64,000 nucleotides of DNA from Desertimonas flava (GTDB lineage: Bacteria > Actinomycetota > Acidimicrobiia > Acidimicrobiales > Ilumatobacteraceae): the NCBI RefSeq assembly GCF_003426815.1, contig NZ_QKYK01000020.1:1-64000 (forward strand), read 5' to 3'. The position numbers were made by a program, and so were the translations under genes. Below, in pieces: positions 3,933 through 60,879 of the stretch (position 1 is its first letter; each line of letters opens with the position of its first letter). Under the pieces are notes generated by a model. The model saw only the letters and a program-made list of their open reading frames with translations, did no database searches and was not told where the DNA came from.

Positions 3933-4717
3933 GGTGCGTCCCCCGTTTCGTCGGCCCGGCCGTCGCCGAGATAGGCGGCGAGCACCGCGGAATCGTTGCG
4001 GATCTCGCCGGGCGTCCCAGCAGCGATCACCCGACCGGTGTCCATGACGTAGATGCGGTCGCAGACGCCAAGGACCAGGCGCATGTCGTGATCGACGAGC
4101 AGCATCGTCGACCCCGCCTCGACCAACGCCCGCAGGCGATGGCCCAGGGCGGCACTCTCCTGCTCGTCCAGTCCGGCCGCCGGCTCGTCGAGGCAGAGGA
4201 CGGCGGGGTCGGTGATCAGGGCCCGGGCGACGCCGACGAGCTTGCGCTGGCCGTGCGACAGCTGGTCGGGGAAGAGATCGGCCGTGTCGGCCAGCCCGAC
4301 CCGGTCGAGGACGGCGCCGATGCGCTCGCGATCGCGGTTGCGACCGAGGCCGACGAGCCCGCGCAGGACGTCGAAGCGGCGGGGGCGACGATCGGCGACG
4401 GCCAGGTTGTCGACCACGTCGAGATCGTCGAACAGTTCGACGGACTGCCAGGTGCGGATCAACCCGGCCCGCGCCCTGGCGACGGCGGGCAGGGACGACA
4501 GGTCGGTGTCGCCGAGACGCACCTCGCCGGTCGACGGGACGAATCCGGTGATGGCGTCGATGAACGTGGTCTTGCCCGCACCGTTGGGACCGATGACCCC
4601 GACGAGCTCACCCTCGGCGATCGACACGTCGACGGCATCGTTGGCGGTGACGCCGCCGAACCGCACGGTGACGCCGCGAGCCTCCAGCAGGGCGCCGTTC
4701 GCTCGTTCCTCGCTCAC
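3929..4717 (-). CDS. livG: Branched-chain amino acid/amide ABC transporter ATPase LivG
   Basis: The 262-residue ATPase has Walker A GPNGAGKTT, signature LSHGQRKLVGVARAL and Walker B VLCLDEPAAGLD, with the C-terminal loop expected of LivG. The start is uncertain because the 5' end lies in a triplicated repeat: GTG codons occur at 4717, 4825 and 4932. The GTG at 4717 gives a protein beginning VSEERANGALLEARGVTVRFGG, close to the usual family length. The GTG at 4825 is in frame and would add 36 residues; the one at 4932 is out of frame because the repeat spacings are 107 and 108 bp. Confidence 0.9.
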   Translation of the reverse strand: MSEERANGALLEARGVTVRFGGVTANDAVDVSIAEGELVGVIGPNGAGKTTFIDAITGFVPSTGEVRLGDTDLSSLPAVARARAGLIRTWQSVELFDDLDVVDNLAVADRRPRRFDVLRGLVGLGRNRDRERIGAVLDRVGLADTADLFPDQLSHGQRKLVGVARALITDPAVLCLDEPAAGLDEQESAALGHRLRALVEAGSTMLLVDHDMRLVLGVCDRIYVMDTGRVIAAGTPGEIRNDSAVLAAYLGDGRADETGDAP

Positions 4718-4932
4718 GCCGCTGCCTCCGGGGGCTGCGCCCCCGCTCGCTGCGCTCGCGCCCCATCCCCGTCCGGCTCGCTGGCGCTCGCTCGAACGGA
4801 CGCCGTTCGCTCGTTCCTCGCTCACGCCGTTACCTCCGGGGCTGCGCCCCCGCTCGCTGCGCTCGCGCCCCATCCCCGTCCGGCTCGCTGGCGCTCGCTC
4901 GAACGGATGGCGTTCGCTCGTTCCTCGCTCAC
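4696..4932. repeat. 107/108-bp tandem repeat at the livHM-livG junction
   Basis: The 22-bp end segment starting CGTTCGCTCGTTCCTCGCTC occurs at 4696, 4804 and 4911, separated by two nearly identical spacers with a one-base difference (a run of five versus four G). On the minus strand every copy contains GTGAGCGAGGAACGAGCGAA, that is, a GTG start overlapping a TGA stop. The copy at 4932 overlaps the real stop of the livHM permease. From there a 36-residue open frame runs and ends in TGA inside the next copy, at 4822. The unit therefore duplicated the stop/start junction itself. It also contains the palindromic-looking CGCTCGCTGCGCTCGC, seen again at 52566. Confidence 0.9.
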
Positions 4933-6995
4933 GCCGTTGCCTCCACGACGGGGGCGGGCGTTCGCCGGCGTCCGGCGAGGTGTCGGATCACACCGCCGGT
5001 GTGCCGCAGCGCCGCGGCGATCCCCTCGGGATTGGCGATCGCCGTGACGATGAGCAGGGCGCCGGTGGCCAGTTGCTCCGTCTCCCCCATGTGCATCACC
5101 TTGTCGAGCACCGTGCTCGAGAGCCCGCCCGCCACCAGCACGCCGGCCGTGATGGCACCACCCACCGAGGAGATGCCGCCGAGATAGGCGATGGCCAGGG
5201 CCGACAGCGAGGTCATCACGGCGAACGTCGTCGGCTCGACACGGCCCGAGTTCTGATAGGCGAGCAGGCTGCCGGCGATGCCGGCGAGGAACGAGGCGAG
5301 GGCGAACGCCAGCAACTTGGTGCGCACGTGATCGATGCCCACCGATGCCGCCGCCCGCTCGTTGGCCCGCACGGCGAGCATCGACCGGCCGACGTTGCTG
5401 CGCCGGAGGTTGACCACGGCGACGACGGCCACGATCATCACGACGCCGGCGAAGATGCCGAACGGGACACTCGGGACCCCCCGGTCGTCGAGCTGGTCGA
5501 GGGGCCCGAACTTGTAGCCCAACAAGCTCGGGGAGGGCGCCGGCACGGCGTCGGCCGAACTGCCGACGAGATCGTCGTTGTTGAAGACCAGCTGGTCGAC
5601 GGCGTAGGCGAAGCTCAGGGTGACGAGCGCCAGATTGACGCCGCGGATGCGCACGGCGGGGACGGCCACGACGAGACCGATCACGGTGGCCACGCCGGCG
5701 GCGAGGATGGGAGCGAGGGGAAACGGGATCCCCCAGTCACCCGCCGAGCGGGTGAGGAAGAACGCGCCACAGCCGGCGACGGCCATCTGGCAGAGCGAGA
5801 TCTGGCCGACGAGGCCGGTGACGACCACGAGCGACAGGGCGATGACCGTGCCGATGGCCGACACCGTGAGCGCCTGGCGCCACTCGTAGCCGAGCGTCAA
5901 CTGACCCACGACGAACACGACGGCGAGCACGGCCACCAGCCGAACCGGCCGTCGGGTCTCGGGGGCCCGGGGCAGCCGCTCGATCTCGGTGGACCCGCGG
6001 ACCGGGAGGGAACGGCCGCGGGCGAAGAGAGCGGCGACGATGACGAGCAGCGGCAACAGCTCGCGGCTGCCGTTGCTCGGCAGCCACCCGAACTGCGGTT
6101 TGCGCAGCAGGAGGATCAGCAGCTGGTCGACCATGCCGAGGGCGATGGCGGCGATCGTGGCGACGGCGACCGACTCGAAGCGGGCCAGCAGCACGGCGCC
6201 GATCGCCGGGATGACGAGCAGCGTCAGCGTGGTCGGCGACAGCGTGACGAACGGGGCGGCGAGGATCCCGACGGCCGCCGACAGCACCGACGACAACACC
6301 CAGCTGCGGGCGGCCAGACGGTCGGGCGAGTAGCCGAGCAGCACGGCGCCCTTCTCGTTGCCGGCGGCTGCCCGCGCGGCGAGGCCGAACACCGTGAAAC
6401 GGAACAGGGCCCAGAGCCCGATGCCGGCGGCCACCACGATCACCGCCAACCACAGGCGGTCGGCCTTGACGATGCCGCCGAGCATGTGGATGGGCTGGTC
6501 GGGCAGGATCGACTCGGCCGACCGGGCGTCGGAACCGAACCGCAGCCCGATCGTCGACTGGAGCACGATGATGACGCCGACGCCGGCGACCGTCTTGGCG
6601 AGCGGCGGCGCCGTGCGCAACGGGCGGTAGACGAGGGCGTGCATGGCGTAGCCGAGGGCCGCGGCAACGGCGAGGGACAGGACGAGGGCGGGGACGACGG
6701 GCATCGAGCCACCCCCGATCCCGACGAAGGTCGGGATGTCGGGAAGGGACAGGTCGGCCCCGAACCACGCCGTCACCCCCTCGAGGAGTGACAGCGGGTT
6801 CGGGATCGGAGGCAGGAACAGCCGGCCGGCGCGATGGAGCTCGTAGTACGTGTACGCGCCGTACATGGCCACGGCGCCCTGGGCCAGGTTGACCACCCCC
6901 GAGCCGCGGTAGGCGACGAGGACGCCCTGGGCGAGGGCGGCGTACAGGGCACCCGTCCCGATGCCCAGGACCAGGAACAGGAGGTACTCGTTCAT
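4929..6995 (-). CDS. Fused LivH-LivM permease of a branched-chain-type ABC importer
   Basis: The 688-residue integral membrane protein is a head-to-tail fusion of the two permeases that are usually separate. The N-terminal half begins like LivH (MNEYLLFLVLGIGTGALYAAL, then GSGVVNLAQGAVAMYGAY). The second half, from about residue 370, is LivM-like: VVTGLVGQISLCQMAVAGCGAF, RIRGVNLALVTLSFAYA, then the EAA-like loop near NERAAASVGID. Many hydrophobic helices fill both halves. It forms the membrane pore with LivF and LivG. The stop overlaps the first GTG of the downstream repeat as GTGA. The binding protein gene lies 25 bases upstream. Confidence 0.92.
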   Translation of the reverse strand: MNEYLLFLVLGIGTGALYAALAQGVLVAYRGSGVVNLAQGAVAMYGAYTYYELHRAGRLFLPPIPNPLSLLEGVTAWFGADLSLPDIPTFVGIGGGSMPVVPALVLSLAVAAALGYAMHALVYRPLRTAPPLAKTVAGVGVIIVLQSTIGLRFGSDARSAESILPDQPIHMLGGIVKADRLWLAVIVVAAGIGLWALFRFTVFGLAARAAAGNEKGAVLLGYSPDRLAARSWVLSSVLSAAVGILAAPFVTLSPTTLTLLVIPAIGAVLLARFESVAVATIAAIALGMVDQLLILLLRKPQFGWLPSNGSRELLPLLVIVAALFARGRSLPVRGSTEIERLPRAPETRRPVRLVAVLAVVFVVGQLTLGYEWRQALTVSAIGTVIALSLVVVTGLVGQISLCQMAVAGCGAFFLTRSAGDWGIPFPLAPILAAGVATVIGLVVAVPAVRIRGVNLALVTLSFAYAVDQLVFNNDDLVGSSADAVPAPSPSLLGYKFGPLDQLDDRGVPSVPFGIFAGVVMIVAVVAVVNLRRSNVGRSMLAVRANERAAASVGIDHVRTKLLAFALASFLAGIAGSLLAYQNSGRVEPTTFAVMTSLSALAIAYLGGISSVGGAITAGVLVAGGLSSTVLDKVMHMGETEQLATGALLIVTAIANPEGIAAALRHTGGVIRHLAGRRRTPAPVVEATA

Positions 6996-41004: not shown

Positions 41005-42720
41005 ATGAAATATCGTTCGCTCATCGCCATCGCGGCCGTCGGCGCACTCGCGCTCGCGTCCTGCGGTGACGACGATGACGCGGCCGGCGAGGCCACCACA
41101 CCGGCAGCGGTGACCCAGGCTGCTGCCGACGCCACGGAAGCCGAGGCCACCGACGCTGTCGCGGTGACCACCGCCGAGACCACCGAGGCCGTTGCCACCA
41201 CCGAGGGCGCTGACGCGACGGTGGCCGCTGCGACGACCGAGGCTGCCGCCGAGACCACCGAGGCTGCTGCCACCACCGAGGCCGCCGCGACGACCGAGGC
41301 CGCCGCGACGACCGAAGCCGTGGCCACGACCGAAGCCGTGGCCACGACCGAAGCCGTTGCCACCACCGAAGCGGTCGCCACCACCGAAGCGGTCGCCACC
41401 ACCGAAGCGGTCGCCACCACCGAAGCCGTTGCCACCACCGAAGCGGTCGCCACCACCGAAGCGGTCGCCACCACCGAAGCGGTCGCCACCACCGAAGCGG
41501 TCGCCACCACCGAAGCGGTCGCCACCACCGAAGCCGTTGCCACGACCGAAGCGGTCGCCACGACGGAGCCGACAGCGACCACCGAGGCCGCTGCCGAGAC
41601 CACCGAACCGGCCGCCACCACCGAGGCCGTCACCGAGACCACCGAACCGGCCGCCACCACCGAGGCCGTCACCGAGACCACCGAACCGGCCGCCACCACC
41701 GAGGCCGTCGCCGAGACCACCGAGCCGGCCGCCACGACGGAGCCGACGGCGAGCACCGGTCCCAGCGAGGGCAGCGAGCCCGCCGGGTCCGACGTCGCGG
41801 GCGGCATCACGTTCCCGGTCACCCCGGGTCCGGATTGGCCGGAGTCGCTGACGTTCACGCTCACCCCGTCGCAGGAGGCGGGCGGTCTCATCGACACCGC
41901 CACACCGCTCGCCGAGGCCCTCGCCGAGCGTTTGGGCATCGACGTCGAGCCCATCGTGCCGTCCGACTTCGCCGGTGTGATCACCGCCCTGACCTCCGGT
42001 CAGGCACAGATCGCCGGCGGCCTCGGCCCGGTGCAGATGGTGCAGGCCGAAGACGATGCCGGCGCCGAGCTCATCCTCCAGTCCGAGCGCTTCGGCAGCT
42101 ACGAGTACGTCACGCAGTGGTTCACCAACGACCCCGACACGTTCTGCGAGGACACGCCGGTCGAGGATCCCGAGTCCGGGTTCCTCTTCTGCAACGGCGT
42201 GCTCGACGCGACCGGTCCGTCCGATGGCCCGATCGGTGAGGACCACCTCGCCGACGTCGCCGGCCAGACCGTGGCCTTCGTCGACCAGGGCTCGGCATCG
42301 GGGTACCTCGTGCCGTCGCTGCAACTGCTCAACGCCGACGTCGACCCGCAGGACGACATCGAGACCATCTTCGCCGGTGGCCACGACGCGGCGGTCCAGG
42401 CCGTGTACGACGGCACGGCGTCGGTCGGAGTCTCGTTCAACGACGCCCGCACCACCCTTGTCGACCAGTACCCCGACGTGGGTGAGAAGGTCGTCGTCTT
42501 CGCCTGGTCGTTCCCGATCCCGAACGACGGCTTCGCCGTCGCCGGCGACCTGCCCGAGGATCTCAAGGAGGCCATCACCGCCGCCTTCCTCGACATCGCC
42601 GCCAACGATCCGGACGTCCTCTCGGAGGTGTACGACATCGACGGCCTGACGCCGGTCGATGGGGCCGACTTCGACGTCATCCGCGACCTGCGGGCTCAGC
42701 TCTCCGACCTGCTCGAGTGA
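41005..42720 (+). CDS. phnD: Phosphonate/phosphite-type ABC transporter lipoprotein PhnD with long repetitive linker
   Basis: The 571-residue protein has a lipoprotein signal ending ALALASCGDD (lipid anchor cysteine at residue 20), then an exceptional Thr/Glu/Ala/Val-rich linker at about 28-255 and a C-terminal PhnD-like binding domain from about 275 (LTFTLTPSQEAGGLIDTATPLAEAL is the family's usual substrate-site opening; VAGQTVAFVDQGSASGYLVPSLQL follows). The linker probably spans the cell wall. Phosphate-like sites bind phosphonate, phosphite or hypophosphite; no C-P lyase genes are nearby, so the ligand is open. The gap before it (40867-41004) holds short hairpins (CCCCTCTTGGGG; GTGGCGGGTCCGCCGTCAC). 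Confidence 0.85.
   Translation: MKYRSLIAIAAVGALALASCGDDDDAAGEATTPAAVTQAAADATEAEATDAVAVTTAETTEAVATTEGADATVAAATTEAAAETTEAAATTEAAATTEAAATTEAVATTEAVATTEAVATTEAVATTEAVATTEAVATTEAVATTEAVATTEAVATTEAVATTEAVATTEAVATTEAVATTEAVATTEPTATTEAAAETTEPAATTEAVTETTEPAATTEAVTETTEPAATTEAVAETTEPAATTEPTASTGPSEGSEPAGSDVAGGITFPVTPGPDWPESLTFTLTPSQEAGGLIDTATPLAEALAERLGIDVEPIVPSDFAGVITALTSGQAQIAGGLGPVQMVQAEDDAGAELILQSERFGSYEYVTQWFTNDPDTFCEDTPVEDPESGFLFCNGVLDATGPSDGPIGEDHLADVAGQTVAFVDQGSASGYLVPSLQLLNADVDPQDDIETIFAGGHDAAVQAVYDGTASVGVSFNDARTTLVDQYPDVGEKVVVFAWSFPIPNDGFAVAGDLPEDLKEAITAAFLDIAANDPDVLSEVYDIDGLTPVDGADFDVIRDLRAQLSDLLE
41290..41750 (+). repeat. In-frame 18-bp and 39-bp tandem repeats in phnD
   Basis: An 18-bp unit encoding TTEAVA is repeated 14 times in a row (about 41310-41575), after less regular TTEAAA units. 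It is followed by four 39-bp units encoding ETTEPAATTEAV(T/A) or its variant (about 41593-41750). Third-codon positions alternate between GCGGTC and GCCGTT/G versions, which suggests recurrent unequal exchange. Confidence 0.92.
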
Positions 42721-49550: not shown

Positions 49551-50711
49551 TTACTGCGGCGACCGCCCGTCACCGGTGGACGAGTCGGTGCCGGCCCGGT
49601 GGACGTGGATACGGCGCAGGCGTGCGCTGAGGCCGCACGTGATCTCGTAGCCGATCGTGCCGAGCGGGCCCGCCCAGTCCTCCACGCGGAGGCCGACACC
49701 GCCCTGCTCGCCGATCAACACGACCTCGTCGCCGGCCGCCACGTCGGCGTCGCCGCAGTCGACGAGCAGCTGGTCCATGGTCACCGTGCCGACGATCGGG
49801 TGACGCCGACCGCGGATGAGCACGTCGACGCCGAGGCCCGACAGGTTGCGTCGCACGCCGTCGGCGTAGCCGAGCGGGACGGTGGCGATGTTGGCGTCGA
49901 CGGGAAGGGCGTACCGCAGGCCGTACGACAGCCGCTCACCCGCCGGCAGGCGTTTGACGAACGACACCCGCGCCTTCAGCGAGAGTGCGGGCCGGAGCAT
50001 GGCGGCCTCGTCGTCGACGCCGGGTCCGGGCGAGATGCCGTAGACGGCGATGCCCGCACGCACGAAGGAGTGATGCGCCCGCGGGTGCACCAGCGCCGCC
50101 GCCGAGTTGGCGGCGTGGACGAGGTCCACTGGCGGCAGGGCGGCCCGAACGGCGTCGAAGATGTCGAGCTGGGCAGCCGTGTCGGGACGATCGGGCTCGT
50201 CGGCCACCGCGAGGTGGGTGAACAGGCCGGCCAGGTGGAGGCAGCCGGTGGCGGCGATGTACTCGGCGAGCTCGGCGGCCTCGTCGGGGCGGGCGCCGAC
50301 GCGATGCATGCCCGTGTCGATCTTGAGGTGGACCGAGACTCCGGTCTCGCCCGCGTCGCCAGCCGCGGCGGCGATGGCATCGATGCCGGCCGTCGTCGAC
50401 ACGGTCGGCGTGATGCCGTGGGCGATGATGTCAGGGGCGGCCTCCCGCGGTTGCTCGCTGAGCACCAGGATCGGCGCCTCGACGGCGGCCCGGCGGAGCT
50501 CGACGCCCTCGCTCACCAGGGCGACGCCCAGCCCGCTCGCCCCGGCATCGAGCGCGGCGCGGGCCACTTCGACGGCGCCGTGCCCGTAGGCATCGGCCTT
50601 GACGATCGCCCACACGTCGGCGGGGGCGACGACGTCACGGAGACACCGGATGTTGTGGGCGATGGCGTCGAGATCGATCTCGACCCACGCCCAGCGGTGA
50701 GACCCGCTCAC
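49551..50711 (-). CDS. alr: Alanine racemase
   Basis: The 386-residue PLP enzyme has the lysine in VWAIVKADAYGHGAVEVA (about residue 39) and the second-base tyrosine region GISPGPGV downstream; GYADGVRRNLSG is typical of the C-terminal domain. It makes D-alanine for peptidoglycan. Start overlaps the nnrE/nnrD stop by 4 bases. Confidence 0.96.
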   Translation of the reverse strand: MSGSHRWAWVEIDLDAIAHNIRCLRDVVAPADVWAIVKADAYGHGAVEVARAALDAGASGLGVALVSEGVELRRAAVEAPILVLSEQPREAAPDIIAHGITPTVSTTAGIDAIAAAAGDAGETGVSVHLKIDTGMHRVGARPDEAAELAEYIAATGCLHLAGLFTHLAVADEPDRPDTAAQLDIFDAVRAALPPVDLVHAANSAAALVHPRAHHSFVRAGIAVYGISPGPGVDDEAAMLRPALSLKARVSFVKRLPAGERLSYGLRYALPVDANIATVPLGYADGVRRNLSGLGVDVLIRGRRHPIVGTVTMDQLLVDCGDADVAAGDEVVLIGEQGGVGLRVEDWAGPLGTIGYEITCGLSARLRRIHVHRAGTDSSTGDGRSPQ

Positions 50712-52075
50712 CGCGGGCTCCCGTGCTCTTCGATCGCGGCGAGCACCGATGGCAGCGCGGCGATCACGTCGCTGGCCACGAGACCCGCCGCCGGGATGCT
50801 GTTGGCGGCGGCGGCATGGAGCCAGGCCCCGGCCGCGGCGGCGTCGAACGCGGTGGCCCCACCGGCGAGCAGCGCACCGATGATGCCGGAGAGCACGTCG
50901 CCGGTGCCGGCGGTGGCCAGGCGCTGGTCACCGTCGGCGACGAGGCGAACCGCTCCGGACGGGTCGGCGACCGTGGTGGTCGGACCCTTGAGCAGGACGA
51001 CGGCGCCTGTGTGGGCGGCGAGCGAGCGAGCGGCCTCGATGCGATCGGGACCCGGCGGAGATCCGGACAGCACCTCGAACTCGCCGTCGTGCGGCGTGAG
51101 CACGGTGGCAGCGGCGCGGCGGTTCACGAAGTCGGTGACCGCGGCACCGAGGGCGACGAGCCCGTCGGCGTCGATCACCAGCGGTGTCGGTGCTGCGGCG
51201 ACGAATCGCGCGATGTCGCCGGCCGTCCCCGGAGCGCGACCGAGCCCGGGTCCGACGATCGCCGCGCGAAACCGCTCGATGCTGTCGAGGGCGGGGTCGG
51301 CCCAGCCGGTGGCGGGGAGCGTCCGGCCCACGGCTTCGACCGGCAGGTCGACGGCGCCGGCGCCGGGAACAGAGACCACCACCATCCCCGAGCCCGCCCG
51401 CATCGCCGCTGCCGTCGCCAGCCGGGCCGCACCCGTCATGCCGGAACTGCCCGCCACGATGCGCAGCGACGTGTGCCACTTGTGGGCGTCGGCGGCCCGG
51501 CTGGGGAGCCATCGGGCGACATCGGTGGCCTCGATCACGTGAGCGGCCGCTCGCGTGACATCGAGACCGATGTCGGCGACCTCCACGATCCCGGCGAGCT
51601 GCTTGCCGGCGCCGAACACGAGGCCCGGCTTCAGCGCGGCGAACGTGATCGTGCGCTGCGCGGTCACCGCGCCCTCTCCGGCAGCGCCGGTAAGGCCGTT
51701 CACACCGCTCGGGATGTCGACGGCCAGGACTGGCGCGCCGCTCGGGTCGGGAGCGGCGTACTCGCCGCGGAAGCCGGTGCCGTACGCGGCGTCGATCACC
51801 AGATCGGACGCAGGGAGCACCGCTGGCGCATCGGTTGCGGTGAAGATCCGCACCTTCACCCCGGCCTGGGCGAGCACCGCGGCGGCCACCCGCCCGTCGT
51901 TGCCGTTGTTGCCTTTGCCGGCGACGACGTTGACCACGCGGCCGTAGGTGCCGCCGAGCATCCGCCGGGCGGTACGCGCGACGGCGGCGCCGGCCCGGTC
52001 GATCAGGACGTCGACCGGCTCGGGCGCGGCGGCGTCGATCGCCGCCATCTCGGCGGGCGTGACGACCGGGCTCAC
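50708..52075 (-). CDS. nnrD: Bifunctional NAD(P)HX epimerase/ADP-dependent dehydratase
   Basis: The 455-residue protein combines an N-terminal YjeF_N epimerase domain (GKGNNGNDGRVAA at about 53-65; DAAYGTGFRG; VDIPSGVNG) and a C-terminal ribokinase-like dehydratase (KGPTTTVADPSG and the TAGTGDVLSGIIGALL active-site motif near 390). It repairs damaged NAD(P)H hydrates. The epimerase domain begins slightly short compared with E. coli Nnr. Located between acpS and alr as in other actinobacteria. Confidence 0.92.
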   Translation of the reverse strand: MSPVVTPAEMAAIDAAAPEPVDVLIDRAGAAVARTARRMLGGTYGRVVNVVAGKGNNGNDGRVAAAVLAQAGVKVRIFTATDAPAVLPASDLVIDAAYGTGFRGEYAAPDPSGAPVLAVDIPSGVNGLTGAAGEGAVTAQRTITFAALKPGLVFGAGKQLAGIVEVADIGLDVTRAAAHVIEATDVARWLPSRAADAHKWHTSLRIVAGSSGMTGAARLATAAAMRAGSGMVVVSVPGAGAVDLPVEAVGRTLPATGWADPALDSIERFRAAIVGPGLGRAPGTAGDIARFVAAAPTPLVIDADGLVALGAAVTDFVNRRAAATVLTPHDGEFEVLSGSPPGPDRIEAARSLAAHTGAVVLLKGPTTTVADPSGAVRLVADGDQRLATAGTGDVLSGIIGALLAGGATAFDAAAAGAWLHAAAANSIPAAGLVASDVIAALPSVLAAIEEHGSPR

Positions 52076-52452
52076 GTGGCGACGACCTGGGCGATCGCGA
52101 CCGGGCCGTCATGGCTGAGCGACACGTGCCAGCGGCCGATCCCTCTGGCGATCGCGAGGTCGAGTGCCTTGCCTGTGACCATCAACGACGGCGCCCCGTT
52201 GGTCTCGCCGCCCTGCTGGACCCGCACCCAGACCTCGTGGAAGCCGAACGCGCCGAGCCCGACGCCCATCGCCTTCATGACCGCCTCGCGGGCCGCGAAG
52301 CGGGCGGCGAGCGAGGGCACGGGGTCGGACTTCGGGGTGACGTACTCCAGCTCCTCGGCGACGAAAATCCGCTCGCGCATCGACGGAGTACGTTGCAGCG
52401 ACAGCCGGAATCGTTCGACGTCGACCACGTCGACGCCGACCCCCTTCACCAT
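52072..52452 (-). CDS. acpS: Holo-[acyl-carrier-protein] synthase
   Basis: The 126-residue phosphopantetheinyl transferase has GVDVVDVERFR at the N-terminus (magnesium-binding Asp) and RFAAREAVMKAMG (about 57-69) as second metal/CoA motif. It activates ACP. The stop overlaps the nnr gene by 4 bases. Confidence 0.95.
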   Translation of the reverse strand: MVKGVGVDVVDVERFRLSLQRTPSMRERIFVAEELEYVTPKSDPVPSLAARFAAREAVMKAMGVGLGAFGFHEVWVRVQQGGETNGAPSLMVTGKALDLAIARGIGRWHVSLSHDGPVAIAQVVAT

Positions 52453-52603
52453 GTCAATTGGGTTCCCCGGCCACGCAGGCCGCGCGAACGGCCGGCCGAC
52501 AAGCCGGCTCGGCTGAAGCCTCGGCAGCTAGCGCTCCGCCGACCTTCACCGCCCGGACCTCAGGACGCTCGCTGCGCTCGCTGAACTCCGGCAACCGAAC
52601 CGC

Positions 52604-52632
52604 TCCGAGATAGTGCCAGGCACTATCTCGGA
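52604..52632. repeat. Palindrome family copy 5 (near-identical to copy 1)
   Basis: TCCGAGATAGTGCC, A, and its complement: a perfect 29-nt palindrome with the same arms as that at 27501. It lies in the 219-base gap between the glmS-like gene and acpS on the minus strand. The gap also has CGCTCGCTGCGCTCGC (52566), shared with the livG repeat, and a lone GCTGGCACC at about 52644. Confidence 0.9.
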
Positions 52633-52671
52633 AGCGGGGTGGGGCTGGCACCATCGGGGACACCGTGTTCG

Positions 52672-55600
52672 TCATGACGTGCGCCAGAGATCGGCGGTCT
52701 CGCTGATCGGCGCGATCAGGAGGTCGGCGACGTCGAGGTCGGCGAGCCGGCTGTCGTCGAACTCCTGCTCGGTCTCGGTCACCCAGTCCACCAGGCGGTC
52801 GTAGCGCCGGTCGTAGCCCTGCAGGGCACCGCGCATCGTCGCCGCGTCGAGTCGCTCGTGGAAGCGCACGTGCAGCAGGGTGATGCCGGTGGTGACGCCC
52901 GACTTGACCTCGGGGACGAAGATGACGGTGCGGCCGTCGCTGCGCCCGCGCGCGACGAGGATCTCCCGCTGGCTGGCCACGTTGCGCTTCGTCCCCGACA
53001 GCACGGGGCGACGCTCGACGCGGCTGGAGAGCTCGCGCGAGATCCCGCCGCGATCGACGACGGTGACGGTGTCGCCGTCGATGCCGTAGCGCGTGAAGCC
53101 CACCACCTCGGCGACGGTCGGGTCGAGGTCGGCGAGCACCTTCAGCGTGCGGTAGCTCAGCACGTCGCGGCCCGCCCCGGCGGTCAGCACCGCCTGCACG
53201 AGCCGCCGGTCGAGCACGCCTTCGTCGCTGCGGGAGATGCCGACCGTGACGGTCTTGGCCTGATGCTTGATGGCGTCGACCGGCCGGGTGAGCTCTTCGA
53301 TCGCCTGGGTGAGGGCGGCGAGGAGGTCGTCGAGGAGGGCGGCGGGCGTGCCGACCTTGCCGGTGCCCGCCTGGTACCGCTCGATCGGCTGATCGGACAG
53401 GGCGTCGCCGAGGAGTCCTGACAGCCGCACGGCCGTGCTCGCCTCGAGGTGGCCGTCGTAGCGGGAGTTGCGGAGCCCGTCGTGGAACTCGTCCGAGCAC
53501 CGGCTGATGCCGGCCCGCACGTTCTGCAGCATCTCGTCGGGCGACAGGTCGAGCACGGCGGCCCGCTCGATCACTTCGCGGGCTTCCCGGAGCGGCAGCG
53601 CCGACGCATCGATCGCCAGGGCTGCCTCGTAGCCGAACAGGTGCCCGGCCATCGTCGACAGGACGAATCCCACGGCCGGATCGACCGGCGGCACGGAGAT
53701 GGTGGCGGCGGCCTGGTAGCGCACGTCGCCGTCGTCGGCGACAACGATCGGCGTGGCCTTGTGGGCCCGGAAGATCGCCACTTCCTTGCTGACGTCGTCG
53801 GCGGTCGATCCCGCGAGCCCGGCCGCGCAGACGAGGATGAGCGGCTCCGACGACAAGTCGATGTGCTTCTTGTCCTCGGTGATGTCGCAGGCGATCGACT
53901 TGTAGCAGAGCTCACTGAGCTTGATGCGGACCTCTTCGGCGGCCACCTTGTTGACACCGTTGCCGACCACGGCCCAGTAGCGCTTGGTGGGGGCAAAGCG
54001 GCGGGCCGCGTCGGCGATGACGTCACGCCGGGCGAGGACGGTGCGCATCGCGTCGGGCAGCGTGCGAAGTGACGACAGCAGTTCGTGCCGGCGACGCTCG
54101 GTGGGCACGCCGGCGGCCTCGGCGATGGCACACGACAGCAGCATGCCTGCTGCGACCTGGGCGTAGAAGGCCTTGGTGGACGCCACGCTCATCTCAACGT
54201 CCCGGCCGTCGGACGTGTACAGCACGCCGTCGGCCTTGTCGGTGAGGTCGCTGGACCGCCGATTGACGATCGACAGCACGGCCGCGCCGCGGGCCTTGAG
54301 CAGGTCGACGGTGCGGTTGGTGTCGGTGGTGGTGCCACTCTGGCTGACGGCCACGGCCAGCGTGTCGGACATGTCGAGACCGAGCCCGAAGCCGGACAGC
54401 TCGGTGGCCGTGATGGCGTCCACGGTCAGCCTGCCGGCGGCGAGCTCGGTGAGCGTCTTGGCCATCGACGCCCCGGCGACCGCGGCCGTACCCTGACCGA
54501 TCACCCGTACGCGCGTGATCGACCCCGCCGCCAGTCGGGCCACCACATCCTCGGGCAGCGCCCGGTGACCCACCACGGCCCGGAGCAGCCCGTCGGGCCC
54601 GTCGGCGATCTTCCCGCGCAACGTCTTGGCGAAGCTGTCGGGAGACTCGGTGATCTCCTTCAACAGGAAGTGCGGGGCGTTGCCGAGGTCGATGTCCCGC
54701 GTCGTCACTTCGGCCGTCACCACGTCGGCGTCAGTGACCGGCAGCGGCGAGCCGTCGTAGGCGAGGCGGATGATCCCGTCGACCGTCCCGGCGCCCGCCG
54801 CGTCGAGGGCGACGAGTTGACCGCCGCCCTCCCCATCGAGCCGGACGAAGCGGTCGGTCTCCTCGACGATGCCGTACGGCTCGCTGGCGACGATGAACCG
54901 GTCGTCGGCGAGACCGATGTACACCCCTTGACCGCTGCCCTTCAGGGCCAGGAGCACCGTGCCAGGGTCCGACGCCGACGCCGCGCCGATGGCGACCGAG
55001 CCCTCGAACTCGGCGACCGTGCGCCGGAAGGCCTCGGCGAGCGCTCCGGCACCGACCGCGGCCTGTCCGGGGCTGCCGGCGACGGTGTCGAGATGACGGG
55101 CGAGGAGGGCGGGGATCACCTTGGCGTCGGTGGTGATGGGACCGGCGAAGCGGAGGCCGTGCGCCACCTTGAGGTCGGCGTGGTTGTCGACGTCGCCGTT
55201 GAGCACCCCGACCGTGTAGTGGTGCTGCTCCCCGCCGGTGAGTTCGCTCTCCGACCCCCCCGAGGAGAGCAACCTCTCCGATCCGCCGGAGGAGAGCGAG
55301 CTCTCCGATCCGCCGGAGGAGAGCAAGCTCTCCGATCCGCCGGAGGAGAGCGAGCTCTCCTCTCCATTGACCGGGTGAGCGTTGGGCTCGGAGATGATGC
55401 CCACGCTGGCCCAGCGGGTGTGGCCGAGGACGGACACCTGCGCGGTGGGCGCGGCCAGTGCTCGTCGCAGCAGTTCGTCGGACGCGATCGCCGCTCGCAT
55501 CGCCGCCGTGTTGTCGCCCAGCTCCCCGATCTCGGCGGCTGCCTTGTAGGCGAACGAGAGCACGGGGCCGGCCGACGAGTCGACGGCGCGCACCGAACCG

Positions 55601-56190
55601 TTCTGGAAGAGCGGATCGCCCGATCGCTTGGAGAGCACGGTGGCGATCGCCGGATCGGCGAGGTCGAGACCGTGACCCCAGAGGAAGACGTGGACACCGG
55701 CCGAGTCGCGGCCACGCACCTCCATGCGATCGATCGCCGACAGCGCCTGTTGCAGTGCGAGATAGCCGGCGCGTGCGGCATCGCCCGCACCGCGGCCGGC
55801 GAGGATGTCGACCTCGCGCACGGTGCGCAGGCGATCGCACCGGATCGCCCACAGCGCGTCCTTGAGCCGGATCGCCGTGGCGCTCTGGCGTTCCAGATCG
55901 TCGGCGGCCGCACCGGCGTCGATGCCGGCGAGGGCCGCGTCGACCTCGGCGGCGTAGGCGTCGAGCTGATCGAGGCGCGAGGTGATGGCCGCCAGCAGTT
56001 CATGCCGGTCGGCGAGGGCGAGCACACCGGGCAACCCACGCAGTGATCGATCGACGCCGGCGAGTTCATCGGCGACCGCTGCCGGGTCGCCCAGGCAGGC
56101 GAGCGCGGCGTCGAGCCCGGCGACCACATCGTCGGCGGCCGGCACGGCCCTGGTCGGAGGCCGGCTGACGATGGCGATGATCCCGCACAT
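52672..56190 (-). CDS. Giant GlmS-like protein: glutaminase plus two SIS domains and C-terminal extension
   Basis: The 1172-residue protein begins MCGIIAIVS with the N-terminal glutaminase cysteine. GHTRWASVGIISEPNAHPVNG (about residues 255-275) and VGVLNGDVDNH match the glutaminase domain. From about 520 (LLKEITESPDSF) it continues with two SIS domains: SQSGTTTDT near 625 and VASTKAFYAQV as in GlmS, and LSELCYKSIACDITEDKKHID, which keeps the Glu and His of the isomerase site although the usual GELKHGP wording is altered. GlmS is about 610 residues, so this has a long N-terminal helical insert, a repeat insert at about 275-318 and about 270 extra C-terminal residues. It lies next to glmM and may supply GlcN-6-P; a regulatory paralogue is also possible. 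Confidence 0.82.
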   Translation of the reverse strand: MCGIIAIVSRPPTRAVPAADDVVAGLDAALACLGDPAAVADELAGVDRSLRGLPGVLALADRHELLAAITSRLDQLDAYAAEVDAALAGIDAGAAADDLERQSATAIRLKDALWAIRCDRLRTVREVDILAGRGAGDAARAGYLALQQALSAIDRMEVRGRDSAGVHVFLWGHGLDLADPAIATVLSKRSGDPLFQNGSVRAVDSSAGPVLSFAYKAAAEIGELGDNTAAMRAAIASDELLRRALAAPTAQVSVLGHTRWASVGIISEPNAHPVNGEESSLSSGGSESLLSSGGSESSLSSGGSERLLSSGGSESELTGGEQHHYTVGVLNGDVDNHADLKVAHGLRFAGPITTDAKVIPALLARHLDTVAGSPGQAAVGAGALAEAFRRTVAEFEGSVAIGAASASDPGTVLLALKGSGQGVYIGLADDRFIVASEPYGIVEETDRFVRLDGEGGGQLVALDAAGAGTVDGIIRLAYDGSPLPVTDADVVTAEVTTRDIDLGNAPHFLLKEITESPDSFAKTLRGKIADGPDGLLRAVVGHRALPEDVVARLAAGSITRVRVIGQGTAAVAGASMAKTLTELAAGRLTVDAITATELSGFGLGLDMSDTLAVAVSQSGTTTDTNRTVDLLKARGAAVLSIVNRRSSDLTDKADGVLYTSDGRDVEMSVASTKAFYAQVAAGMLLSCAIAEAAGVPTERRRHELLSSLRTLPDAMRTVLARRDVIADAARRFAPTKRYWAVVGNGVNKVAAEEVRIKLSELCYKSIACDITEDKKHIDLSSEPLILVCAAGLAGSTADDVSKEVAIFRAHKATPIVVADDGDVRYQAAATISVPPVDPAVGFVLSTMAGHLFGYEAALAIDASALPLREAREVIERAAVLDLSPDEMLQNVRAGISRCSDEFHDGLRNSRYDGHLEASTAVRLSGLLGDALSDQPIERYQAGTGKVGTPAALLDDLLAALTQAIEELTRPVDAIKHQAKTVTVGISRSDEGVLDRRLVQAVLTAGAGRDVLSYRTLKVLADLDPTVAEVVGFTRYGIDGDTVTVVDRGGISRELSSRVERRPVLSGTKRNVASQREILVARGRSDGRTVIFVPEVKSGVTTGITLLHVRFHERLDAATMRGALQGYDRRYDRLVDWVTETEQEFDDSRLADLDVADLLIAPISETADLWRTS
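55239..55367 (-). repeat. 27-bp tandem repeat within the glutaminase domain
   Basis: A 27-bp unit (starting GGAGAGC at 55264, 55291, 55318 and 55345) encodes a nine-residue repeat of type ESSLSSGGS; about 4.5 copies are present. Each unit contains GAGAGCGAGCTCTC-like self-complementary sequence. It inserts a Ser/Gly-rich loop between NAHPV and VGVLNGD. Confidence 0.92.
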
Positions 56191-56283
56191 GACGGTCAGG
56201 TTACGCCGTGCCGACCACCCCCGCCGAGCGGTTACGGGCCCCGGTCGGCGACGATCGGGGCCCTGCCGGGGCCCCGATGGCGA

Positions 56284-57660
56284 TCAGGCGCTGGCGCCCC
56301 AGCGGGCGTCGGCGAGGGCGGCGAGCGACGACGCCGCCTCGTGCGCCACGGCGTCGTCGGCCGCCTCGACCATCACACGGACGAGGGGCTCGGTGCCGCT
56401 CGGACGAACGAGCACCCGGCCGGTGGCGCCGAGCTGCCGCTCGACCGCGGCGATCTCGGCGGCGAGCTGATCGGCGGCGTCGGGCACGCGTACGGCGACG
56501 CGAACGTTCACCATCACCTGAGGCAGCCGAGTCATCGCCTCGTCGGCCAAGCGAGCGAGCGGCCGTCCCGAACGCTGGATGACATCGGCGAGGACGATGC
56601 CGGTGAGCAGGCCGTCGCCGGTGGTGGCCCGGTCGCGGAAGATGACGTGGCCGCTCTGCTCGCCGCCGAGCGACAGGCCGCCCGCGTCGAGTGCCTCGAG
56701 CACGTAGCGGTCGCCGACGGCCGTCTCGATCACCCGGATGCCCGCCTGCTCCATGGCGATGCGGAAGCCGAGGTTGGACATCACGGTGGCGACGACGGTG
56801 CCGTCGCGCAGCAGCCCGCGGCGGTGGAGATCGGTGGCGCAGATCGCCAGCACGTGGTCGCCGTCGACGACGCGGCCGAGGTGGTCGACCGCCATCAGAC
56901 GGTCGGCGTCGCCGTCCAGGGCGAGGCCGATGTCGGCGCCGTTGGCCAGCACCGCGGCCGCCAACGATGCGGTGTGCGTCGCTCCGCAGTGCTGGTTGAT
57001 GTTGCGGCCGTCGGGCTGGTCGTGTATGGCGACGACGTCGGCCCCGGCCGCAGCGAAGAGGGCCGGTCCGAGAGCGCTGGCGGCGCCGTTGGCGGCGTCG
57101 ACGACGACCTTCAGCCCGGTGAGCGAGCGACCCTGGAGCTCGGCCAGCACGTGCTCGACGTAGTCGAGTGACTGCTCGACGTCGAGCAGCGGGGCGGGCT
57201 CACCGGTGGGAGGCGGCAGGGCGACGACGTCGGCCTCGATGCGCTCCTCCACCTCGTCGGGCAGCTTGAGACCGCCCGGGGCGAACAGCTTGATGCCGTT
57301 GTCTCGGTAGGGGTTGTGTGACGCCGAGATCACCGCACCGATCGCGTTGCGACGGGCTGCTTCGAACGCCACCACGGGGGTCGGCACGACGCCCAGACGA
57401 TGGACCAGCACGCCCTCGGACGCCAACCCGGCGACGAACGCCGCCTCGAGCATCGCCGTCGACAACCGCGTGTCCCCGCCGACGACAGCCTCGGCGCGAG
57501 CGCCTGTCGCCACAGCCTCGGCGCGAGCGCCTGTCGCCACAGCGTCGGCGCTCCCCTTCCTGGCAAGAACCCGAGCAGCCGCCCGCCCCAGATCCAGCGC
57601 GAACGCGGCCGTCAGATCCGAGTTGGCAACCCCCCGCACCCCATCAGTCCCGAACTTCAC
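56284..57660 (-). CDS. glmM: Phosphoglucosamine mutase
   Basis: The 458-residue enzyme has the phosphoserine site ISASHNPYRDNGIK (about residue 118), metal-binding LDGDADRLM (about 255) and C-terminal phosphate loop RPSGTEPLVRVMVE. It converts GlcN-6-P to GlcN-1-P. Near the N-terminus, before GGDTRLST, residues 41-58 are two exact copies of a nine-residue unit (AVATGARAE), an insertion absent from typical GlmM. Downstream of rplM-rpsI as in mycobacteria. Confidence 0.94.
   Translation of the reverse strand: MKFGTDGVRGVANSDLTAAFALDLGRAAARVLARKGSADAVATGARAEAVATGARAEAVVGGDTRLSTAMLEAAFVAGLASEGVLVHRLGVVPTPVVAFEAARRNAIGAVISASHNPYRDNGIKLFAPGGLKLPDEVEERIEADVVALPPPTGEPAPLLDVEQSLDYVEHVLAELQGRSLTGLKVVVDAANGAASALGPALFAAAGADVVAIHDQPDGRNINQHCGATHTASLAAAVLANGADIGLALDGDADRLMAVDHLGRVVDGDHVLAICATDLHRRGLLRDGTVVATVMSNLGFRIAMEQAGIRVIETAVGDRYVLEALDAGGLSLGGEQSGHVIFRDRATTGDGLLTGIVLADVIQRSGRPLARLADEAMTRLPQVMVNVRVAVRVPDAADQLAAEIAAVERQLGATGRVLVRPSGTEPLVRVMVEAADDAVAHEAASSLAALADARWGASA
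57487..57540 (-). repeat. Perfect 27-bp duplication in glmM
   Basis: The 27-bp unit at 57487-57513 is repeated exactly at 57514-57540, with a partial third copy after it (AGCGTCGGCGCT). It is in frame and only changes the length of a surface loop. Confidence 0.93.
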
Positions 57661-57810
57661 GCCCCCGATTCTGCCGCACCCAACCCCCCAACCCCCGCCG
57701 CCACCACACCAATCTCAACGCGTCTTCAACACGAAGACCTAGCAACCGCCCAACGCGCCAATGAAGACCGGTAACAAAGCGACCAACGCGAGCGCGCCGA
57801 AGGGGGATGC

Positions 57811-57834
57811 TCGAAGGGGGATTCCCCCCTTCGA
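57811..57834 (-). terminator. Hairpin downstream of rpsI
   Basis: TCGAAGGGGG pairs perfectly with CCCCCTTCGA around ATTC. The gap of 300 bases between rpsI and glmM (57661-57960) also has a CTCGCCGC/GCGGCGAG hairpin at 57910-57927, nearer the rpsI stop; either could end the rplM-rpsI message. The gap's remaining part is C-rich (CCCCCAACCCCC) and carries no supported gene. Confidence 0.6.
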
Positions 57835-57960
57835 TGCGGCGACCAGCGCAGCTTGCTGCGCCGCCGCCTCTTTCAACTCTTCAGCGCGAGCGAAGCGAGC
57901 TCGAACCAACTCGCCGCAGGCGGCGAGGGAGCGAAGCGACCGACGCCGCCGAGGACGAAA

Positions 57961-58356
57961 TCAGCGCTTGGTGAACTGCTTGGCCTTGCGGGCCTTGACG
58001 AGGCCGTACTTCTTCGACTCCTTCTTCCGCGGGTCGCGGGTGAGGAGTCCGGCCTTCTTGAGCGTGGAGCGGCTCTCGGGCTCGACCTCGGCGAGGGAGC
58101 GGGCGAGGGCCATGCGCATCGCGCCGGCCTGGCCACTGACGCCGCCGCCGGTGATGGTGGTGTCGACATCGAAGCGCTCGGTGGCCTCGAGGACCCGCAG
58201 CGGCTCGACGGCCTCCATGCGGTGGGCCGGGGTGGTGAAGTAGGTCTCGAACGGACGACCGTTGACCGTGAGCACGCCGGTGCCGGGGCGCAGACGGGTG
58301 CGAGCGATGGCCTCCTTGCGGCGGCCGGTGGTCTGGGTGAGCGGTGCGGTGGCCAT
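57961..58356 (-). CDS. rpsI: 30S ribosomal protein uS9
   Basis: The 131-residue protein has GRRKEAIARTRLRPGTG at the N-terminus and the conserved basic end DPRKKESKKYGLVKARKAKQFTKR (given as the family's KARKAKQFTKR tail) that contacts P-site tRNA. It follows rplM by 32 bases. Confidence 0.97.
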   Translation of the reverse strand: MATAPLTQTTGRRKEAIARTRLRPGTGVLTVNGRPFETYFTTPAHRMEAVEPLRVLEATERFDVDTTITGGGVSGQAGAMRMALARSLAEVEPESRSTLKKAGLLTRDPRKKESKKYGLVKARKAKQFTKR

Positions 58357-58388
58357 GACGGGTGCCTTCTTCTCGGATGCTTCTCGGG

Positions 58389-58835
58389 TCAGCGGGCCTT
58401 GGCGCCGTCGATGACGAGCGGGGCCGGGGACTGGGCGGAGTGCGGGTGATCGGGGCCGGCGTAGACCTTGAGCTTGGTGAGCATCTGGCGGCCGAGCGGG
58501 CCCTTGGGCAGCATGCCCTTGATGCTGTTGCGCACGGCGTCGGCCGGCTTGGTGGCGAGCAGCTCGGCGTAGCTGTTGGACTTGATGCCGCCCGGGTAGC
58601 CGCTGTGGCGGTACACCCGCTCACGGTCGGCCTTGCCGGCCGACAGCACGACCTTCTCGGCGTTGACGATGACGACGTGGTCACCGGTGTCCATGTGCGG
58701 AGCGAAGACCGGCTTGTGCTTGCCCCGCAGGACGCGGGCGACCTCGGTGGCCATGCGGCCGAGGACGAGGCCCTCGGCGTCGACGACGTGCCAGTCGCGC
58801 TGGATCTCGTTGGCTTTCGGGGTGTACGTGGGCAT
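58389..58835 (-). CDS. rplM: 50S ribosomal protein uL13
   Basis: The 148-residue protein shows WHVVDAEGLVLGRMATEVA, the HMDTGDHVVIVNAEKV segment and the C-terminal YAGPDHPHSAQSP typical of L13. It starts the rplM-rpsI pair. Confidence 0.97.
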   Translation of the reverse strand: MPTYTPKANEIQRDWHVVDAEGLVLGRMATEVARVLRGKHKPVFAPHMDTGDHVVIVNAEKVVLSAGKADRERVYRHSGYPGGIKSNSYAELLATKPADAVRNSIKGMLPKGPLGRQMLTKLKVYAGPDHPHSAQSPAPLVIDGAKAR

Positions 58836-58938
58836 TGTCGGAGACCTTGTCTGTCTGGCGTCTTCGTCGGCTCGACTGGAAAAGAGAACCGGGCAAGGTT
58901 ATCGGCGCCGAGGCCGGATCGGCTACGGGCGGGCCAGG

Positions 58939-60879
58939 TCAGTCGCCGACGATGTAGCAGCGCACCCGGCTGGCGTCGATTTCCGTGATCGTTCCGGCGC
59001 CGGGGTCGAACTGCCAGGCCCGGACGGCGGGGCGATAGCCGTCCACCTCGACGTCGTCGGTCACCGCGGCCATGGTCATGTCGTGCGTGCCGTCGAGCTC
59101 GCACTCCCCGAACTCGACGAACTGCCCCGGCCCCACGGGCACATCGATGGCCGCGAGCACCGTCTCGGGCGTCAGCGTCCCATCGGGATTGCGTCCGTCC
59201 GCTCGCGTCAGCCACAGCATGTGGCGCTCGCCGGCTCTCACGTACTGCCCGCCGAAGAAGGGCGGCTCGTCGCTGAGGCCGAGGACCCAGCCACCCGCGT
59301 TCTCGAGTCCGGGGATCGGCGACCCGTCGGGAGTGTGGATGGTGCCCGCTGGCATCTGCAGCTCGAACACGAGACCGACGTAGGACGCCGCGTCGCCTCC
59401 GGTCGGCGGGGCCGGCGCCGTGACCTCCCACGGCTCGATCGTGCCGTTGCCGTCGGCATCCGTGCCGGCCGGGTCGCCCGTGTAGAGCGCAGCCCACGTG
59501 TCCGGGCCGACGAGGCCGTCGACTTCGAGCCCGGCGGCCTGCTGGAAGTTCCGCACGGCCTGCTCGGTGGCGGGGCCGAAGTAGCCGTCGGCGTCGATGC
59601 TCTGCCCCCGCTTGTTGATCTGCTCCTGGATCGCCCGCACGGCGGGTCCCTTGTCGCACTTGCGCAGGGGGTAGGCGTCGTCGGCCTCGACGTAGGTGCA
59701 GCGGGGCACGGTGGTCGTCGTGGCTGCAGTGGTCGCAGGAGCGGTCGTGGAGGTGGGGGTCGGGGCGGCGGGTGGTGCCGGGCTGCCGTTGCGGTCGAGC
59801 GTGGCCGTGATCCCCGCCGCGCAGCCGGCGTCGGCGACAGCCGGCTCGGCAGCGGCGGTGTCGATCACGAGGACCCGCGCCGCCGGCTCGTGAACGGGGG
59901 CCGTGTCGGAGTCGGCGGGGTCGGGATCGTCGGCGAACGTGCCGACCCAGAAGCGGCCGTCGAAGTCGGCATGCAGCAACCAGCCACCGGGGTCGCCGAG
60001 ATCGAGGCGCAGCGATTCGGTCCCGGTGGCTGCGTCGGCGACCACGACCGACCAACCGCCGACCATCTGCTCGGACTCCATGTCCCAGTCGGGCGCTTCG
60101 ACCCACGCCCAGGTGGGTGCGGTGGCACCGGACGGGATGGCGGCGACCGGCCAGATGTGGAGTGGCGGCTGGGCGTACTCCTCCGGCGTGACGGGCGACG
60201 GCCAGTCCTCCAGCCGGTTGCCGGCTGCGTCGGACGTCGAGAAGGCCTCGCTGAGGTCGGCGAACGCACCTTCGACGACCCGGCCCGCGCCGATCGTGAC
60301 GCTGTTGACGCCGTACTCGATACCGCCCGCCGGTCCGATGTCACGCTGCTCTCCGTCGGCGAAGTCGACGAGGACGGCGCCGTAGGCCTCCTCGTCGTCT
60401 CGCTCGCCTATGACATCGACGATGGTCGCCGCCGTGCGTCCGTCCAGCCAGCCGGCCGAGAGCAACCTGACACCGCCGGTCGCCGCGCGTACGGCTTCGG
60501 TGGCTCCGGGGGCGATACGGAAGACGTCCATCGGCACGCCGTCTCCGACGTCGGCCTCGGCGGGCGCGGTCGTGGTGACGTTCTCCGTCGGCGACGACGG
60601 GACCTGGGCCCACACCGTGCCGTCCGGCCCACGGACCGCGATCGTCGGCGGCGCGGCGAACGCCGGGACGTTGAGGCGCTCGGTGCCGCCGGCCCGCTCG
60701 ATGGCCACGCCGGACGCATCGGCCACCACGAAGGCGACACCCTCGGGCACCGCCTGGCAGATGGTGCCGGTGGGCGAGGCGGAGGCCGGCGCCGCCGAGA
60801 CGCCACTGGCACCGGCCAGGGCGGCGGCGAGCGCGGCGACGGTCGATCCGATCGGGACGGCACGCATGGAGGCCTTCAT
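58939..60879 (-). CDS. Secreted protein with peptidoglycan-binding domain
   Basis: The protein is about 646 residues from the ATG at 60879 (ATG 60867 also possible). It has a signal peptide (STVAALAAALAGASGVSA). The N-terminal region to about residue 370 has no recognised domain; a Pro/Thr-rich linker (APTPTSTTAPATTAATTTTV) follows, then a PG_binding_1-type domain at about 400-470 (GPAVRAIQEQINKRG, GYFGPATEQAVRNFQQ). The C-terminal 200 residues include ELQMPAGTIHTPDG-like sequence and a final YIVGD. It is probably a cell-wall attached protein of unknown role. Confidence 0.8.
   Translation of the reverse strand: MKASMRAVPIGSTVAALAAALAGASGVSAAPASASPTGTICQAVPEGVAFVVADASGVAIERAGGTERLNVPAFAAPPTIAVRGPDGTVWAQVPSSPTENVTTTAPAEADVGDGVPMDVFRIAPGATEAVRAATGGVRLLSAGWLDGRTAATIVDVIGERDDEEAYGAVLVDFADGEQRDIGPAGGIEYGVNSVTIGAGRVVEGAFADLSEAFSTSDAAGNRLEDWPSPVTPEEYAQPPLHIWPVAAIPSGATAPTWAWVEAPDWDMESEQMVGGWSVVVADAATGTESLRLDLGDPGGWLLHADFDGRFWVGTFADDPDPADSDTAPVHEPAARVLVIDTAAAEPAVADAGCAAGITATLDRNGSPAPPAAPTPTSTTAPATTAATTTTVPRCTYVEADDAYPLRKCDKGPAVRAIQEQINKRGQSIDADGYFGPATEQAVRNFQQAAGLEVDGLVGPDTWAALYTGDPAGTDADGNGTIEPWEVTAPAPPTGGDAASYVGLVFELQMPAGTIHTPDGSPIPGLENAGGWVLGLSDEPPFFGGQYVRAGERHMLWLTRADGRNPDGTLTPETVLAAIDVPVGPGQFVEFGECELDGTHDMTMAAVTDDVEVDGYRPAVRAWQFDPGAGTITEIDASRVRCYIVGD

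Follow-up and report, generated by a model that had tools for sequence, protein, structure and literature searches.

A double-length GlmS-like protein with an internal C-tail motif and a PAS-like domain in Desertimonas flava

The open reading frame on the minus strand at 52672-56190 of the window, by which we mean the whole 64,000-nucleotide stretch of Desertimonas flava DNA analysed here, encodes a single protein of 1172 residues with the N terminus MCGIIAIV. We consider it probable (roughly 60%) that the cell has no other L-glutamine:D-fructose-6-phosphate amidotransferase than the product of this gene, a long and deeply divergent form of GlmS to which allosteric control may have been added. 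Taken on its own, GlmS function is highly probable, being well supported by mutual exclusion with the canonical enzyme, synteny, active-site residues and the predicted fold; sensor-type control through the C-terminal tail is plausible, with about even chances. By making glucosamine-6-phosphate, GlmS opens the amino-sugar pathway to the cell wall; it is a paradigm for drugs and regulation, and its two-domain design is very conserved. With whole Actinomycetota families in which a double-sized form stands to the exclusion of the usual enzyme, GlmS is less uniform than assumed, and a sensor-gated version of it may exist. Standard profiles miss the gene: since the long forms score below the curated cut-off, the genomes that carry them look glmS-negative.

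Gene, neighbourhood and distribution

A sequence-only reading of this stretch had described a GlmS-like product of twice the usual size adjoining glmM, with a long N-terminal insert and a 9-residue repeat loop in the glutaminase domain, all of which are borne out by the features below (residue numbers refer to the protein).

52672..56190, minus strand: long-form GlmS-like protein, whole ORF (P0001); same-length homologues in 57 of 148 class genomes, own genome counted
56185..56187, minus strand: Cys2 codon, N-terminal glutaminase nucleophile after Met removal; invariant in 113 long forms, canonical Cys1 (PMC9272926)
55771..56157, minus strand: N-terminal helical insert (about residues 12-140) that follows strand 1 and precedes the RRLEYRG-type glutaminase helix; AF2 helices from 19-31 to 137-156
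54691..55770, minus strand: remaining glutaminase (Ntn) domain, residues 141-500, with HTRWAS, NAHP, NGD and TDAKV motifs; from the alignment with 1xff
55246..55360, minus strand: 27-bp tandem array encoding (S/R)(S/L)LSSGGSE four times (residues 279-314) and lying in a hypervariable loop, with His272 before it and Asn331 after it; from the repeat scan and the AF2 model
53605..54687, minus strand: isomerase (double SIS), residues 502-862, with the SQSGTTT phosphate loop, VASTK and KLSE (K757, E760); from PF01380, fold and invariant residues
53854..53877, minus strand: EDKKHIDL loop, residues 772-779, catalytic His (H776) kept; from invariance and the low-pLDDT loop 764-777
53284..53604, minus strand: helical bundle, residues 863-969, between SIS core and C-tail; AF2 helices 838-879, 884-907, 917-931, 935-943 and 949-967
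53227..53283, minus strand: displaced GlmS C-tail PVDAIKHQAKTVTVGISRS, residues 970-988, with K979 as the proposed Lys603 equivalent; A978-K979 invariant (113 sequences), matrix score
52675..53226, minus strand: C-terminal PAS-like domain, residues 989-1172, mixed fold; AF2 pLDDT mostly over 90
56284..57660, minus strand: glmM, which takes the following step towards UDP-GlcNAc; lies immediately upstream, order kept in relatives
52072..52452, minus strand: acpS, downstream neighbour; order kept in relatives

In Pfam, the protein has a single SIS domain (PF01380) over the cut-off and a sub-threshold GATase_6 match. Against TIGR01135, the curated GlmS equivalog, it scores 209 bits for a cut-off of 418, and its long-form relatives score 213-225 bits. 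Because the long form neither reaches this score nor has the two-domain architecture of ~610 residues that ends in the C-tail, it is a variant of GlmS that stands outside the curated equivalog. An Rfam scan of 50000-60000 gave nothing at gathering score, neither a glmS ribozyme nor another element beside the gene. Between glmS and acpS, at 52605-52631, lies a near-perfect palindrome, CCGAGATAGTGCCAGGCACTATCTCGG, a possible terminator or repeat element.

Following the earlier suggestions to search the genome for a canonical GlmS and to see whether other Acidimicrobiia share the extension, we found no TIGR01135 match over the cut-off in the own genome (96.6% complete), where the long-form gene, with its active-site residues kept (below), is the best match. 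NagB (TIGR00502) was likewise not found in this genome, and its best glmU match (L195, G000:C27:5708-6745) is partial, covering profile positions 2-338 only, with an in-frame TGA; a frameshift, an error of assembly or an atypical C terminus may lie behind it. In the class sample of 148 genomes, the long form (~1120-1200 residues) is present in 57 (about 40%) and a canonical GlmS of ~610 residues over the curated cut-off in 83; none carries both, and eight have neither form over threshold, one of these having a canonical fragment. Each family tabulated is uniformly long-form or uniformly canonical. In the phylum sample, the long form occurs in nine more genomes outside the class, eight of them without a canonical copy over the cut-off; the ninth (G187, 5% contamination) has both. 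Among the best 80 of 554 relatives, those with a name come from Ilumatobacter, Candidatus Microthrix and Aquihabitans, among others. A plasmid search returned no long form: coverage of the query stays below 80% in every record, and the best-ranked ones hold a canonical GlmS about 24-29% identical to it. The long form is a family-wide architecture and not a local oddity; a literature search, conducted largely outside subscription journals, found no paper describing an extended GlmS in this group.

Long and canonical genes share the same slot, glmM > glmS > acpS/nnrD/alr; neighbours in the relatives were identified by motif, so that absences among them mean little. In a tree of 60 sequences, quickly built and unrooted, about seven changes per column separate the long form from the canonical enzymes, among them that of E. 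coli, with full support, and the out-of-class long forms nest among those of the class. With the survey confined to Actinomycetota, this history looks less like a recent fusion than like an in-place replacement by a deeply divergent relative or an extreme remodelling.

Predicted fold, active site and displaced C-tail

Structure prediction, also suggested by the sequence-only reading, gave an AlphaFold model of the 1172-residue protein with a mean pLDDT of 87.7. Over residues 2-862 the model has the overall fold of GlmS and GFAT, matching E. coli GlmS (2j6h) with Z 37.9 (575 residues aligned, 3.6 Å) and human GFAT-1 with Z about 39. Taken separately, the isomerase domain matches its E. coli and human counterparts with Z 36-39, and the glutaminase matches 1xff over 236 aligned residues at 1.9 Å (Z 30.2).

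A profile alignment to E. coli GlmS spans both the glutaminase and the isomerase. Invariant in 113 long forms are the glutaminase residues C2, R259-W260, H272, N331-G332 and D355, which correspond to E. coli Cys1, Arg73-Trp74, His86, Asn98-Gly99 and Asp123. The same holds for the isomerase residues S616-Q617-S618, T621, V669, S671, K757, E760 and H776, the counterparts of Ser347-Gln348-Ser349, Thr352, Val399, Ser401, Lys485, Glu488 and His504. The long forms therefore carry the Cys nucleophile, Arg73, Trp74, Asn98, Gly99 and Asp123 that mark a GlmS glutaminase, together with the Ser347-Gln348-Ser349, Thr352, Lys485, Glu488 and His504 of its isomerase. Among the residues that serve glutamine hydrolysis, phosphate binding and isomerisation, the one exchange is at Ser303, on the substrate side in E. 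coli GlmS, which is Ala569 in every one of the 113 sequences. According to a review, the catalytic residues of E. coli GlmS are Cys1, Glu488, His504 and Lys603 (PMC9272926), and counterparts of all four are among the residues invariant in the long forms.

The altered isomerase motif that had been pointed out earlier is real in that DKKHID replaces ELKHGP, but the catalytic His is kept (H776 for E. coli His504). Since K775-H776-I777-D778 is invariant in the 113 sequences, DKKHID is a fixed feature of the long form and no sign of lost function.

These substitutions bear on whether the protein might be a different sugar-phosphate amidotransferase, making another ketose-derived or aminosugar product, and not the cell's GlmS. 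Such a role would fit the Ser303Ala exchange, DKKHID, the very long branch separating the long form from canonical GlmS, and a low sequence identity, 24-26% to characterised GlmS; we nevertheless regard it as improbable, given a genome without other GlmS, perfect exclusion in the class sample, the shared operon slot beside glmM and a near-complete catalytic set. The sequence-only reading had proposed a GlmS with added control or a different amidotransferase: the same lines of evidence, along with the fold, favour the GlmS role and disfavour the second option, and the PAS-like tail suggests the added control.

Canonical GlmS ends in ...DVDxPRNLAK(T/S)VTVE, in which the AK pair includes Lys603. 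In the long form, VDAIKHQAKTVTVG matches the canonical VD-x5-AKTVTVE that carries Lys603; specifically, residues 970-984 read PVDAIKHQAKTVTVG, with a VD-x5-AKTVTV spacing identical to that of canonical GlmS. We located this element by motif and by a matrix built from 32 canonical tails, because the whole-protein profile-profile alignment stops short of the C-tail and does not cross the 110-residue insert. With this matrix, residues 970-984 score best within the protein, as does the corresponding window in all long forms, and no other of the 106,603 windows from a six-frame translation of the 64 kb ranks above them; their score was reached by 7 of 2000 shuffles of the protein. The motif is found in every long form, but internally rather than at the terminus, and the lid is therefore present but internal. 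The claimed excess of ~270 C-terminal residues is accordingly there at another size, about 310 residues past the SIS core and about 185 past the displaced C-tail. The model has four stretches of low confidence, and the H776 loop (764-777) and the C-tail (971-988) are two of them, as expected of mobile active-site elements. We infer that the C-tail is placed at the active site, where K979 would reach in.

The repeat loop in the glutaminase domain

The 27-bp array at 55246-55360 comprises 4.3 copies with 90% match. It contains three exact 23-mers and a further one with three mismatches, where none would be expected, so the array is not due to chance. The unit is found nowhere else in the genome; its confinement to one array excludes a dispersed repeat element (RPE-like insertion). 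In 22 aligned long-form relatives, the loop that separates the NAHP motif from the NGD motif varies in length and sequence and shows the repeats in none, and because it is missing in all of them the repeat lies outside the long-form design. The AF2 model has a pLDDT under 50 at residues 281-319, and the unit is self-complementary (RNA fold z -3.25), which may favour slippage. We read the repeat loop as most likely a private expansion by slippage, neutral or near-neutral, in a tolerant surface loop. A role in regulation or binding close to the glutaminase site might be read from its position between His272 and the oxyanion Asn331 and from the frame kept through four copies; its absence from every relative aligned, the variability of the loop, the predicted disorder and the self-complementary unit make this very improbable.

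Other repeats were observed in the window. A second 27-bp tandem duplication (57485-57551, ATGARAEAV twice) lies in glmM, 2 kb from the glmS array, so that two adjoining cell-wall genes both carry 9-codon repeats. A long 18-bp array of about 29 copies (79% match) occupies 41171-41711, apparently with an Ala/Thr/Glu-type coding pattern, and a 107-bp tandem repeat of 2.3 copies (95% match) occupies 4693-4944.

Added modules, proposed control and comparison with known systems

The N-terminal insert is less conserved than the rest of the protein, with a mean column identity of 44%. For the N- and C-terminal extras, Pfam gave nothing in the window protein and scattered weak matches in relatives, and a Pfam identity was dropped on these grounds; a PDB sequence-profile search with the two extras returned nothing meaningful.

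Residues 989-1172 were compared with solved structures as folded together with the helical bundle. Their best match is 7jsr 174-359, from Mycobacterium smegmatis L-GDH180, at Z 9.3 over 162 aligned residues, a likeness at fold level only; other PAS/GAF/Cache-like structures reach Z about 7. Foldseek gives a weak E value of 3.5e-3 against L-GDH180, and hhalign aligns the tail domain end to end with an L-GDH alignment at a probability of 4.8%, which lacks significance, so that kinship is unproven. The N-terminal segment of L-GDH180 is described as containing a PAS-type domain, and the authors propose that this segment senses metabolites (PMC8175468). Desertimonas flava itself encodes a 1599-residue large glutamate dehydrogenase (L164 1072-5871) with ACT1/ACT2/ACT3/HM domains, in which the counterpart of the PAS-type region (about 191-340) falls after the ACT1 and before the HM1 match in Pfam.

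Across 198 genomes, the tail domain was seen only within the long form, and its invariant positions include G1005, R1008, G1031, R1034-Y1035, G1049, G1066, K1068 and R1087. PAS-like folds also serve as dimerisation modules, and both the poorly conserved N-terminal insert and the bundle are helical, as would suit a GlmS whose extras act only in assembly or stability, through oligomer interfaces or GlmM scaffolding, and sense no ligand. We consider this unlikely, as the many invariant positions of the C-terminal domain exceed the needs of a plain spacer.

For the preferred reading of a GlmS with added control, sequence and model support an Ntn glutaminase, with Cys2, that feeds a double-SIS isomerase in which the sugar-phosphate site is kept; the Lys-bearing C-tail, the element that closes the sugar site, is present too, yet strung between the helical bundle and the PAS-like domain and not a free end. 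The PAS-like domain might sense a small molecule, either as a measure of nitrogen status or a product of the pathway (UDP-GlcNAc, for example), and would open or close the tethered lid, adding an allosteric control that canonical bacterial GlmS lacks. Weighing against this reading are the identity of 24-26%, a score at half the equivalog cut-off, the Ala569 exchange, a fold match of the tail that sequence profiles leave unconfirmed, and G187 with its two forms. More tentatively, and with somewhat less than even odds, we speculate that Actinomycetota possess a separate allosteric class of GlmS, in which the lid is tethered between bundle and PAS-like sensor, the making of amino sugars is gated by a metabolite that binds at the C terminus, and canonical GlmS has been displaced in place in many lineages.

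Among known systems, NagB-II/AgaS-type SIS enzymes (8eol, 8fdb) share the double SIS fold but lack a glutaminase domain, and the long form scores a weak 65.8 bits to NF046059 for a cut-off of 430. A stand-alone 332-residue SIS protein is encoded elsewhere in the genome (L003 1312-2310, G000 contig C8), next to an apparent ROK-type kinase and DeoR-type regulator, judged by eye, in what is probably an amino-sugar catabolic cluster. The PAS-type region of L-GDH180 (7jsr 174-359; PMC8175468) resembles the long-form tail as its best structural match and in being attached to an enzyme of nitrogen metabolism; it differs in its 9% identity without a significant profile match, and in its N-terminal position in L-GDH as opposed to the C-terminal one here. 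Human GFAT-1 (6r4i, 6svm) shares the fold over residues 2-862 at 24% identity, but has about 680 residues and none of the three added modules. With canonical bacterial GlmS (TIGR01135/NF001484; E. coli 2j6h, 1jxa), the long form has in common the order of glutaminase and double SIS, the catalytic residues, the C-tail motif VD-x5-AK(T/S)VTV and the operon neighbours; it differs in having about 1,150 rather than 610 residues at about 26% identity, in its Ser303-to-Ala and ELKHGP-to-DKKHID exchanges, and in adding a helical insert after strand 1, a bundle before the C-tail and a PAS-like domain after it.
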